From positions 12,639,769-12,703,768 of the forward strand of contig NC_088645.1 of the NCBI RefSeq assembly GCF_964019385.1: a stretch of DNA of 64,000 nt. Direction: 5' to 3'. The notes beneath the pieces were generated by a model. The model worked only from the letters and a program-made list of their open reading frames with translations. It made no database searches and was not told the DNA's origin. Source of the stretch: Sycon ciliatum. Taxonomy: Eukaryota; Porifera; Calcarea; Leucosolenida; Sycettidae. The translations under genes were made by a program, and so were the position numbers. Below are positions 46,525-62,860 of the stretch, one piece after another; position 1 is the first letter of the stretch; every line of letters starts with the position of its first letter.

Positions 46525-49500
46525 GTAGTAGTAGTAGTAGTAGTAGTAGTAGTAGTAGTAGTAGTAGTAGTAGTAGTAGTAGTAGTAGTAGTAGTAGTAG
46601 TAGTAGTAGTAGTAGTAGTAGTAGTAGTAGTAGTAGTAGTAGTAGTAGTAGTAGTAGTAGTAGTAGTAGTAGTAGTAGTAGTAGTAGTAGTAGTAGTAGT
46701 AGTAGTAGTAGTAGTAGTAGTAGTAGTAGTAGTAGTAGTAGTAGTAGTAGTAGTAGTAGTAGTAGTAGTAGTAGTAGTAGTAGTAGTAGTAGTAGTAGTA
46801 GTAGTAGTAGTAGTAGTAGTAGTAGTAGTAGTAGTAGTAGTAGTAGTAGTAGTAGTAGTAGTAGTAGTAGTAGTAGTAGTAGTAGTAGTAGTAGTAGTAG
46901 TAGTAGTAGTAGTAGTAGTAGTAGTAGTAGTAGTAGTAGTAGTAGTAGTAGTAGTAGTAGTAGTAGTAGTAGTAGTAGTAGTAGTAGTAGTAGTAGTAGT
47001 AGTAGTAGTAGTAGTAGTAGTAGTAGTAGTAGTAGTAGTAGTAGTAGTAGTAGTAGTAGTAGTAGTAGTAGTAGTAGTAGTAGTAGTAGTAGTAGTAGTA
47101 GTAGTAGTAGTAGTAGTAGTAGTAGTAGTAGTAGTAGTAGTAGTAGTAGTAGTAGTAGTAGTAGTAGTAGTAGTAGTAGTAGTAGTAGTAGTAGTAGTAG
47201 TAGTAGTAGTAGTAGTAGTAGTAGTAGTAGTAGTAGTAGTAGTAGTAGTAGTAGTAGTAGTAGTAGTAGTAGTAGTAGTAGTAGTAGTAGTAGTAGTAGT
47301 AGTAGTAGTAGTAGTAGTAGTAGTAGTAGTAGTAGTAGTAGTAGTAGTAGTAGTAGTAGTAGTAGTAGTAGTAGTAGTAGTAGTAGTAGTAGTAGTAGTA
47401 GTAGTAGTAGTAGTAGTAGTAGTAGTAGTAGTAGTAGTAGTAGTAGTAGTAGTAGTAGTAGTAGTAGTAGTAGTAGTAGTAGTAGTAGTAGTAGTAGTAG
47501 TAGTAGTAGTAGTAGTAGTAGTAGTAGTAGTAGTAGTAGTAGTAGTAGTAGTAGTAGTAGTAGTAGTAGTAGTAGTAGTAGTAGTAGTAGTAGTAGTAGT
47601 AGTAGTAGTAGTAGTAGTAGTAGTAGTAGTAGTAGTAGTAGTAGTAGTAGTAGTAGTAGTAGTAGTAGTAGTAGTAGTAGTAGTAGTAGTAGTAGTAGTA
47701 GTAGTAGTAGTAGTAGTAGTAGTAGTAGTAGTAGTAGTAGTAGTAGTAGTAGTAGTAGTAGTAGTAGTAGTAGTAGTAGTAGTAGTAGTAGTAGTAGTAG
47801 TAGTAGTAGTAGTAGTAGTAGTAGTAGTAGTAGTAGTAGTAGTAGTAGTAGTAGTAGTAGTAGTAGTAGTAGTAGTAGTAGTAGTAGTAGTAGTAGTAGT
47901 AGTAGTAGTAGTAGTAGTAGTAGTAGTAGTAGTAGTAGTAGTAGTAGTAGTAGTAGTAGTAGTAGTAGTAGTAGTAGTAGTAGTAGTAGTAGTAGTAGTA
48001 GTAGTAGTAGTAGTAGTAGTAGTAGTAGTAGTAGTAGTAGTAGTAGTAGTAGTAGTAGTAGTAGTAGTAGTAGTAGTAGTAGTAGTAGTAGTAGTAGTAG
48101 TAGTAGTAGTAGTAGTAGTAGTAGTAGTAGTAGTAGTAGTAGTAGTAGTAGTAGTAGTAGTAGTAGTAGTAGTAGTAGTAGTAGTAGTAGTAGTAGTAGT
48201 AGTAGTAGTAGTAGTAGTAGTAGTAGTAGTAGTAGTAGTAGTAGTAGTAGTAGTAGTAGTAGTAGTAGTAGTAGTAGTAGTAGTAGTAGTAGTAGTAGTA
48301 GTAGTAGTAGTAGTAGTAGTAGTAGTAGTAGTAGTAGTAGTAGTAGTAGTAGTAGTAGTAGTAGTAGTAGTAGTAGTAGTAGTAGTAGTAGTAGTAGTAG
48401 TAGTAGTAGTAGTAGTAGTAGTAGTAGTAGTAGTAGTAGTAGTAGTAGTAGTAGTAGTAGTAGTAGTAGTAGTAGTAGTAGTAGTAGTAGTAGTAGTAGT
48501 AGTAGTAGTAGTAGTAGTAGTAGTAGTAGTAGTAGTAGTAGTAGTAGTAGTAGTAGTAGTAGTAGTAGTAGTAGTAGTAGTAGTAGTAGTAGTAGTAGTA
48601 GTAGTAGTAGTAGTAGTAGTAGTAGTAGTAGTAGTAGTAGTAGTAGTAGTAGTAGTAGTAGTAGTAGTAGTAGTAGTAGTAGTAGTAGTAGTAGTAGTAG
48701 TAGTAGTAGTAGTAGTAGTAGTAGTAGTAGTAGTAGTAGTAGTAGTAGTAGTAGTAGTAGTAGTAGTAGTAGTAGTAGTAGTAGTAGTAGTAGTAGTAGT
48801 AGTAGTAGTAGTAGTAGTAGTAGTAGTAGTAGTAGTAGTAGTAGTAGTAGTAGTAGTAGTAGTAGTAGTAGTAGTAGTAGTAGTAGTAGTAGTAGTAGTA
48901 GTAGTAGTAGTAGTAGTAGTAGTAGTAGTAGTAGTAGTAGTAGTAGTAGTAGTAGTAGTAGTAGTAGTAGTAGTAGTAGTAGTAGTAGTAGTAGTAGTAG
49001 TAGTAGTAGTAGTAGTAGTAGTAGTAGTAGTAGTAGTAGTAGTAGTAGTAGTAGTAGTAGTAGTAGTAGTAGTAGTAGTAGTAGTAGTAGTAGTAGTAGT
49101 AGTAGTAGTAGTAGTAGTAGTAGTAGTAGTAGTAGTAGTAGTAGTAGTAGTAGTAGTAGTAGTAGTAGTAGTAGTAGTAGTAGTAGTAGTAGTAGTAGTA
49201 GTAGTAGTAGTAGTAGTAGTAGTAGTAGTAGTAGTAGTAGTAGTAGTAGTAGTAGTAGTAGTAGTAGTAGTAGTAGTAGTAGTAGTAGTAGTAGTAGTAG
49301 TAGTAGTAGTAGTAGTAGTAGTAGTAGTAGTAGTAGTAGTAGTAGTAGTAGTAGTAGTAGTAGTAGTAGTAGTAGTAGTAGTAGTAGTAGTAGTAGTAGT
49401 AGTAGTAGTAGTAGTAGTAGTAGTAGTAGTAGTAGTAGTAGTAGTAGTAGTAGTAGTAGTAGTAGTAGTAGTAGTAGTAGTAGTAGTAGTAGTAGTAGTA

Positions 49501-50138
49501 GTAGTAGTAGTAGTAGTAGTAGTAGTAGTAGTAGTAGTAGTAGTAGTAGTAGTAGTAGTAGTAGTAGTAGTAGTAGTAGTAGTAGTAGTAGTAGTAGTAG
49601 TAGTAGTAGTAGTAGTAGTAGTAGTAGTAGTAGTAGTAGTAGTAGTAGTAGTAGTAGTAGTAGTAGTAGTAGTAGTAGTAGTAGTAGTAGTAGTAGTAGT
49701 AGTAGTAGTAGTAGTAGTAGTAGTAGTAGTAGTAGTAGTAGTAGTAGTAGTAGTAGTAGTAGTAGTAGTAGTAGTAGTAGTAGTAGTAGTAGTAGTAGTA
49801 GTAGTAGTAGTAGTAGTAGTAGTAGTAGTAGTAGTAGTAGTAGTAGTAGTAGTAGTAGTAGTAGTAGTAGTAGTAGTAGTAGTAGTAGTAGTAGTAGTAG
49901 TAGTAGTAGTAGTAGTAGTAGTAGTAGTAGTAGTAGTAGTAGTAGTAGTAGTAGTAGTAGTAGTAGTAGTAGTAGTAGTAGTAGTAGTAGTAGTAGTAGT
50001 AGTAGTAGTAGTAGTAGTAGTAGTAGTAGTAGTAGTAGTAGTAGTAGTAGTAGTAGTAGTAGTAGTAGTAGTAGTAGTAGTAGTAGTAGTAGTAGTAGTA
50101 GTAGTAGTAGTAGTAGTAGTAGTAGTAGTAGTAGTAGT
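46525..50138. repeat. (AGT)n array 1, ~3.6 kb
   Basis: About 1,204 trinucleotide units with no interruption seen. Poly-Val, poly-Thr and similar frames are artefacts of the repeat. Confidence 0.95.
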
Positions 50139-62700: not shown

Positions 62701-62860
62701 TAGTAGTAGTAGTAGTAGTAGTAGTAGTAGTAGTAGTAGTAGTAGTAGTAGTAGTAGTAGTAGTAGTAGTAGTAGTAGTAGTAGTAGTAGTAGTAGTAGT
62801 AGTAGTAGTAGTAGTAGTAGTAGTAGTAGTAGTAGTAGTAGTAGTAGTAGTAGTAGTAGT
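59714..62860. repeat. (AGT)n array 3, ~3.1 kb
   Basis: About 1,049 units without a visible interruption, between element 2 and a SINE. Confidence 0.95.

Follow-up and report, generated by a model that had tools for sequence, protein, structure and literature searches.

Dong, a non-long-terminal-repeat (non-LTR) retrotransposon of the R4 clade, inserts in TAA repeats. R2, a related site-specific element, is under development for transgene insertion. Other site-specific lineages are treated in an excerpt that reports the Togen families of fish, placed near NeSL and HERO, as (TG)n-specific and some HERO families as microsatellite-specific too, and Utopia, an element with a restriction-like endonuclease (RLE) that inserts in U2 snRNA genes, as varying in strength of specificity between families (PMC4640811). 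Here we describe a 64,000-nucleotide stretch of the genome of the calcareous sponge Sycon ciliatum (NC_088645.1, positions 12,639,769 to 12,703,768), called the window below, in which two full-length non-LTR retrotransposons, elements 1 and 2, lie within AGT repeats. Very probably they belong to two recently active families of an RLE-type non-LTR clade that inserts preferentially in the (AGT)n/(ACT)n microsatellite. The locus is laid out as follows, with open reading frames abbreviated ORF and reverse transcriptase RT:

46525..50138, + strand: perfect (AGT)n array of 1204 units, the 5′ flank of element 1 (100% perfect repeats)
50139..54338, + strand: element 1, of family 1, a 4200-bp non-LTR retrotransposon present at full length
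50152..50178, + strand: conserved 5′ terminal hairpin of element 1, TGCGGATGGAGATTTTGCTCCTCCGCA
50517..53996, + strand: ORF of element 1, 1159 aa without internal stops, with an N-terminal Cys cluster, RT, CCHC-like motif and RLE-like C terminus
51981..52643, + strand: RT core of element 1 (RVT_1, residues 489-709)
53346..53741, + strand: element 1, CCHC-like motif plus a region resembling an RLE endonuclease; the family alignment has many invariant columns here
54323..54338, + strand: 3′ end of element 1, AATAAAGGCGAAGTTC, with a polyadenylation-like signal 10 nt from the array
54339..55403, + strand: perfect (AGT)n array of 355 units separating elements 1 and 2 (100% perfect)
55404..59713, + strand: element 2 (family 2), full-length, 4310 bp
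55419..55445, + strand: conserved 5′ terminal hairpin of element 2
55891..59379, + strand: ORF of element 2, 1162 aa without internal stops
55933..56034, + strand: N-terminal Cys cluster of element 2, CCSCSRASGTCRSCSCNAAGRCCVDCYPGRDQRC, without a Pfam match
57376..58038, + strand: RT core of element 2 (RVT_1, residues 496-716)
58723..59118, + strand: element 2, CCHC-like motif plus a region resembling an RLE endonuclease; the family alignment has invariant columns here too
59696..59713, + strand: 3′ end of element 2, AATAAAAACACGCTTCCA, with the array directly after
59714..62860, + strand: perfect (AGT)n array of 1049 units (100% perfect) flanking element 2 on its 3′ side, with GTGTATG next

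Both elements end as element|AGTAGT and begin as AGTAGT|element, and the initial annotation was right that they share one orientation and one phase of the repeat (AGT^AGT), both being on the + strand with ORFs free of stops. The rest of the window holds no AGT or ACT array of four or more units, and a single (AGT)3 at 5096. That annotation had also assigned the pair to one family. Because the two proteins are only 65% identical, we place them in two families of one lineage, each with near-identical copies elsewhere. Between the two ORFs dN is 0.27 and dS 2.4 (NG86, with dS close to saturation), and this low dN against dS suggests long purifying selection on the ORFs. About 350 bp of the 5′ untranslated region (UTR) are 80% identical between the elements, and the 3′ UTRs have diverged. 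The 27-nt 5′ hairpin (-15.1 kcal/mol) has the same sequence in families 1 and 2, and the 5′ end of a copy of a further family described below, family 4, carries a hairpin of similar form with an internal loop. A permissive Rfam scan of 50100-50520, at the 5′ end of element 1, returned nothing credible, and a ribozyme of the hepatitis delta virus-like or another known type was dropped as a candidate there for want of a credible match; element 2 was scanned at the gathering threshold only.

The RVT_1 matches of the two proteins are weak (E 2e-5, 24.7 bits, and E 9e-7, 29.3 bits, both below the 29.6-bit Pfam cut-off). A profile built from six family rows gave, at E values up to 10, two matches in PDB, 9nl3 and 9dou (E 5e-5 and 6e-5), both of them R2 retrotransposon proteins matched across the RT core; together with the sub-cut-off RVT_1 matches this identifies an RT of the non-LTR type. 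Neither element has terminal direct repeats, and copies begin at several truncation points, as is usual for long interspersed nuclear elements (LINEs). The C termini of the aligned families share CxC...HxxxxC and conserved D residues in a region without a Pfam match; from the motif order we take these to be a putative CCHC knuckle and RLE. A Cys cluster like that of element 2 also stands at the N terminus in families 1, 3 and 4. Scans of prokaryote genome contigs and of viral contigs, each with two short peptide patterns, found no relatives, as expected for a eukaryotic element.

The evidence for the target comes from copies elsewhere in the genome (538 Mb in 313 contigs). A protein search gave 8107 first-look candidates, of which the best 40 were scored; their 43 matches represent 40 elements after three split matches were merged, a set biased towards ORF-rich copies because it holds the best-scored candidates. 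Flanks were tallied by eye from tables, and the 3′ end was unreadable in 2 of the 40 (N) and the 5′ end in one. Tabulating these flanks, the check that the initial annotation had proposed, bore out its claim: AGT repeats adjoin all 38 readable 3′ ends of these ORF-bearing relatives, and an AGT array lies upstream of 36 of the 39 readable 5′ ends. Insertion in a specific repetitive sequence, as in most RLE-type families, is therefore what the set displays. Weak cases among the 38 are L027 (8 units, then unrelated DNA), L028 (fewer than 4 units, then N) and L030, where 2 AGT units are followed by a 309-nt insertion and then 193 units. This insertion (L030:845-1153, oriented 5327-5636), in the array just past a family-1 copy, resembles a miniature inverted-repeat transposable element of about 300 bp, with matching inverted ends CCGTAAAGTACCGCC.

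Even copies that lack their 5′ ends and begin at differing points (L011, L015, L016, L018 and L021 among them) are preceded by AGT. Full-length copies of family 1, the window copy included, share the 5′ junction AGT|GCGGCTCAT in 12 of 12 cases, and those of family 2 have AGT|TTCTTTACAC in 6 of 12, the other 6 having gained or lost a few bases. In three family-2 copies (L006, L009, L010), perhaps of one sublineage, the 3′ end is 25 nt short and AGT follows directly. The copies are young: element 1 differs by 0.14-0.67% from nine other full-length copies, element 2 by 0.07-0.51% from ten and by 1.35% from an eleventh, and over many chromosomes the differences among full-length copies are 0-1.5% in family 2 (12 copies) and 0.14-0.98% in family 1 (10 copies). 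For background we sampled 20 stretches of 2 kb (38,378 bases) at round rather than random coordinates; an AGT array was present in one, and that array bears a relative, family 1b.

The element ends themselves were also counted genome-wide. The 17-nt 3′ end of family 1 occurs 82 times and that of family 2, AATAAAAACACGCTTCC, 86 times, with no occurrence of either reversed control. In 66 of the 86 family-2 ends one base and then AGTAGTAGT come next; exactly one base separates CTTCC from AGT in all 66, so that they have a single phase. For family 1, where 19 newly sampled ends of the 82 were examined in addition to those in the loci, AGTAGT follows immediately in 18 of 19 and GGTAGTGGTAGT in the remaining one. 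Among 20 newly sampled family-2 ends, AGTAGTAGT is present at 10; the ten without it were read only about 0.7 kb upstream.

Elements 1 and 2 are part of a larger community, with at least seven related families living mostly inside AGT repeats. The additional ones, found in the flanks of nests, are family 3 (46-58% identity to family 2) and families 4, 57, 48 and 1b; a group at 47-49% identity has two ORF lengths and may comprise two families, one copy of it (L125, L129) having been read, and further array-borne 3′ ends (L011, L012, L014, L134) may be yet more families. On the sense strand the repeat after the element is (AGT)n for families 1, 1b, 2, 3 and 48 and (ACT)n for families 4 and 57. 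The initial annotation had suggested a single AGT-specific lineage; the AGT/ACT target holds, and the single lineage gives way to these families, two of which are inserted the opposite way. Between nearest neighbours within 30 kb (same-family pairs being partly double-counted and the place lists including fragments), orientation is the same in 38 of 38 family 1-1 pairs, 33 of 34 family 2-2 pairs and 13 of 16 family 1-2 pairs. Relative to the nearest family-1 or family-2 end, family 48 has the same orientation in 6 of 6 cases, and the opposite orientation is found in 8 of 8 for family 4 and 8 of 9 for family 57 (16 of 17 together). Families 4 and 57 thus use the same repeat in reverse. In a seven-row tree built from families of this genome only they stand together on one side of a branch supported at 100/100, as would fit one switch of target strand; being unrooted, the tree does not tell which orientation came first. 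Two further observations concern these nests. At L017 (oriented 4979-5300) a piece of family-4 3′ UTR stands in AGT sense with about 26 A before AGT, resembling a polyadenylated retrocopy in an array, and in L014 (oriented 5429-6486) and L033, about 0.7 kb past an AGT tract, lies coding sequence (IDISVPGENNIN) from another retroelement, also RLE-like.

AGT tracts of at least 10 units whose end is not followed by A number 972 genome-wide, against 165 for the motif read backwards. Among 100 listed array ends on contig C1, 28 are within 15 kb of a known element place and 51 are isolated, the surrounding 15 kb being free of other array ends and of known places of families 1, 2, 4, 57 and 48; families 1b and 3 are not on the list of known places, so the latter count is an upper bound for empty arrays. 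Conversely, 14 of the 19 known C1 places have a listed array end within 15 kb. Five sampled isolated array ends have 16, 19, 25, 27 and 54 units. L134 may be an element end, since an AATAAA lies a few bases upstream of its array. The window flank at 46441-46526 and a second copy of it at 23191-23276 were considered as a possible view of the empty site, but past the array they have only GTGTATG in common, which directly follows 2 of the 5 sampled isolated arrays as well. Short AGT tracts with no known element nearby, at L130/L131 and L132/L133, have left contexts that are common within each pair and run into GT-rich repeats, as if they were tails of other dispersed repeats.

Several observations weigh against a strict tie between these elements and the repeat. 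At 20 of the 86 family-2 3′ ends AGTAGTAGT is absent within 3 nt, and 9 of the 10 sampled ends of this kind lie outside arrays, mostly as short pieces; copies in unrelated sequence, which the initial annotation had named as contrary evidence, thus exist in part. Of the 9 off-array ends, 4 start AGTA after one base. Eight short 3′ pieces (L114-L120 and L122) are family-2-like, one of which, L115, has an 82% match to the RT region farther upstream, perhaps as part of a longer copy that has diverged; at L121 no element sequence was detectable past the 3′-end pattern in the roughly 0.7 kb read upstream, and L096/L123 is a 526-nt piece with degenerate AGT tracts on either side. Shared flanks of 12, 11 and 6 nt (L118/L105, L120/L108, L119/L106) resemble target-site duplications. 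In family 1, only 2-3 AGT units follow 3 of the 19 sampled ends (L079, L091, L093). On the 5′ side read, no AGT array precedes L017 or a copy at C4:35.93 Mb, for which the 5′ end was not found, and all that stands there in a copy at C3:15.77 Mb is a degenerate AGC/AGT tract. For 5 of the 19 known C1 places the nearest listed array end is more than 15 kb away (arrays with A after them escape the pattern), and 3 of the 16 family 1-2 neighbours are in opposite orientation. The endonuclease assignment, drawn from motifs, and the clade assignment are provisional. Targeting is strong for the ORF-bearing copies and, because off-array family-2 copies exist, not absolute for family 2.

One more contrary case, L004 and L013, bears on how the copies spread: on two chromosomes, these copies have the same unusual 5′ junction, family-4-type sequence as their 3′ neighbour, and zero substitutions between them. 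Some copies may therefore have spread by recombination between arrays, which may have moved at least this one nest. That recombination or gene conversion between AGT arrays, not retrotransposition, accounts for the copies generally would also suit the truncation point common to L025 and the second element of L034, at most 10 kb apart, and the strong clustering of places, since 133 of the 244 listed have another within 30 kb where 6.4 would be expected at random (a figure inflated by split matches). We nevertheless regard it as improbable, given the many distinct 5′ truncation points, the variable 5′ junctions combined with one 3′ phase, the low dN relative to dS, and the short off-array copies with shared flanks.

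A different account, in which insertion has low specificity and the AGT arrays are products of the elements, for instance through RT slippage on an (AGU)n RNA tail, would explain why element-adjoining arrays are often perfect over hundreds of units when the sampled isolated ones have only 16-54, and at L097 an AGT-like tract separates the end of the element from a 7-nt shared flank, a weak case that may be due to chance. It is quite improbable as the origin of the arrays: those 36 of 39 5′ ends, of full-length and 5′-truncated copies alike, adjoin arrays where a 3′ tail is impossible, AGT directly follows the three family-2 copies cut 25 nt short, and 51 of the 100 listed C1 array ends are isolated on a place list lacking families 1b and 3. 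The initial annotation had itself raised arrays as a mere 3′ tail, a possibility contradicted by their presence on both sides of even 5′-truncated copies. The elements may still affect array length, as distinct from array origin. Least probable of all is untargeted insertion with only array copies escaping selection, for although off-array copies exist and most sampled ones are short, neither the fixed phase (66/66) nor the orientation (38/38, 33/34) is expected from survival alone, and the sole copy noticed in the background bases, which were scanned for arrays rather than elements, sat at an array.

We therefore return to targeted insertion into the repeat. Target-primed reverse transcription would account for the constant phase at the 3′ end, the sense orientation, the truncated 5′ ends and the youth of the copies. 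An element-encoded endonuclease would nick the array in fixed phase at the TpA step, on the (ACT)n strand for AGT-sense families and on the (AGT)n strand for ACT-sense families, and the freed 3′ end would prime reverse transcription of the element RNA. Since the central TpA of AGT|AGT reads alike on both strands, reversed recognition would suffice for an ACT-sense family. In seven families an AATAAA lies 7-12 nt from the element end, so the RNA probably stops within read-through repeats or shortly ahead of them. The phase could be set by the pairing of such an AGU-ended RNA instead of by the nick; the data fit either. The cDNA would then be joined upstream within the same array, at a single fixed junction in full-length family 1 and with small gains or losses in half of the family-2 copies, and premature joining would yield the 5′-truncated copies. 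Repeats would remain on both sides of each new insertion, so that arrays turn into nests. A safe-harbour role of the AGT repeats is plausible. More tentatively, and with considerable doubt, we suggest that the branches split one microsatellite by strand, most families nicking one strand and another branch the opposite one at the shared TpA step, and that repeated insertions helped to grow short AGT tracts, like the isolated ones of 16-54 units, into kilobase-long arrays that form a shared and self-enlarging habitat.

Other repeats lie elsewhere in the window. A satellite at 30402-44189 comprises 13-14 copies of a 1050-bp unit, which are 100% identical where stretches of them were compared. An LTR-retrotransposon-like element at 23486-29117, BEL/Pao-like by eye, has a 1664-aa ORF (23775-28769) between 300-bp identical direct repeats (23486-23785 and 28818-29117). 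An apparently 5′-truncated LINE (45111-46440; RVT_1, E 4e-11) has an AATAC tail, and its host repeat partly recurs at 23191-23416. The segments 4466-4619 and 11921-12074 form an inverted pair, 82% complementary, of a tRNA-related repeat that is probably like a short interspersed nuclear element; here ARAGORN predicts a tRNA with anticodon cta at 11995-12067, and the tRNA at 11997-12064 is the sole window match at the Rfam gathering threshold. A tRNA-like stretch downstream of the last window array is weak (E 2.3).

In the open-licence literature we found no earlier report of an AGT-specific retrotransposon, a search that does not establish its absence from print; within that scope these elements add a triplet-repeat target. 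The use of one repeat by several families in two orientations is most likely the most surprising part. Related families inserted in the same repeat in opposite orientations offer a natural comparison, and comparing their proteins could map the determinants of target-strand choice in RLE-type elements; the system also bears on the origin and persistence of kilobase-long perfect trinucleotide arrays. Dong is alike in being a non-LTR element tied to a trinucleotide microsatellite and differs in its triplet, a distinction of target rather than of compared sequence. Togen and HERO share with the sponge elements a reported specificity for microsatellites; as far as the excerpt goes, Togen has a dinucleotide target, with no families in both orientations reported, and is set apart by description rather than by protein comparison (PMC4640811). 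The target found here is AGT/ACT, neither TG nor TAA. Utopia, as that excerpt presents it, is likewise RLE-type with a family-dependent strength of specificity and has another target, its proteins not having been set side by side with ours. R2 differs in inserting in 28S rDNA, where the ORF-bearing sponge copies have all 38 readable 3′ ends at AGT repeats, and they further depart from it in a Cys cluster at the N terminus and in an element-1 5′ end for which Rfam gave no credible ribozyme; yet R2 proteins are the only PDB relatives that the family profile returned, across the RT core, and the two have in common a single ORF, fixed junctions and, probably, a target-primed mode of insertion.

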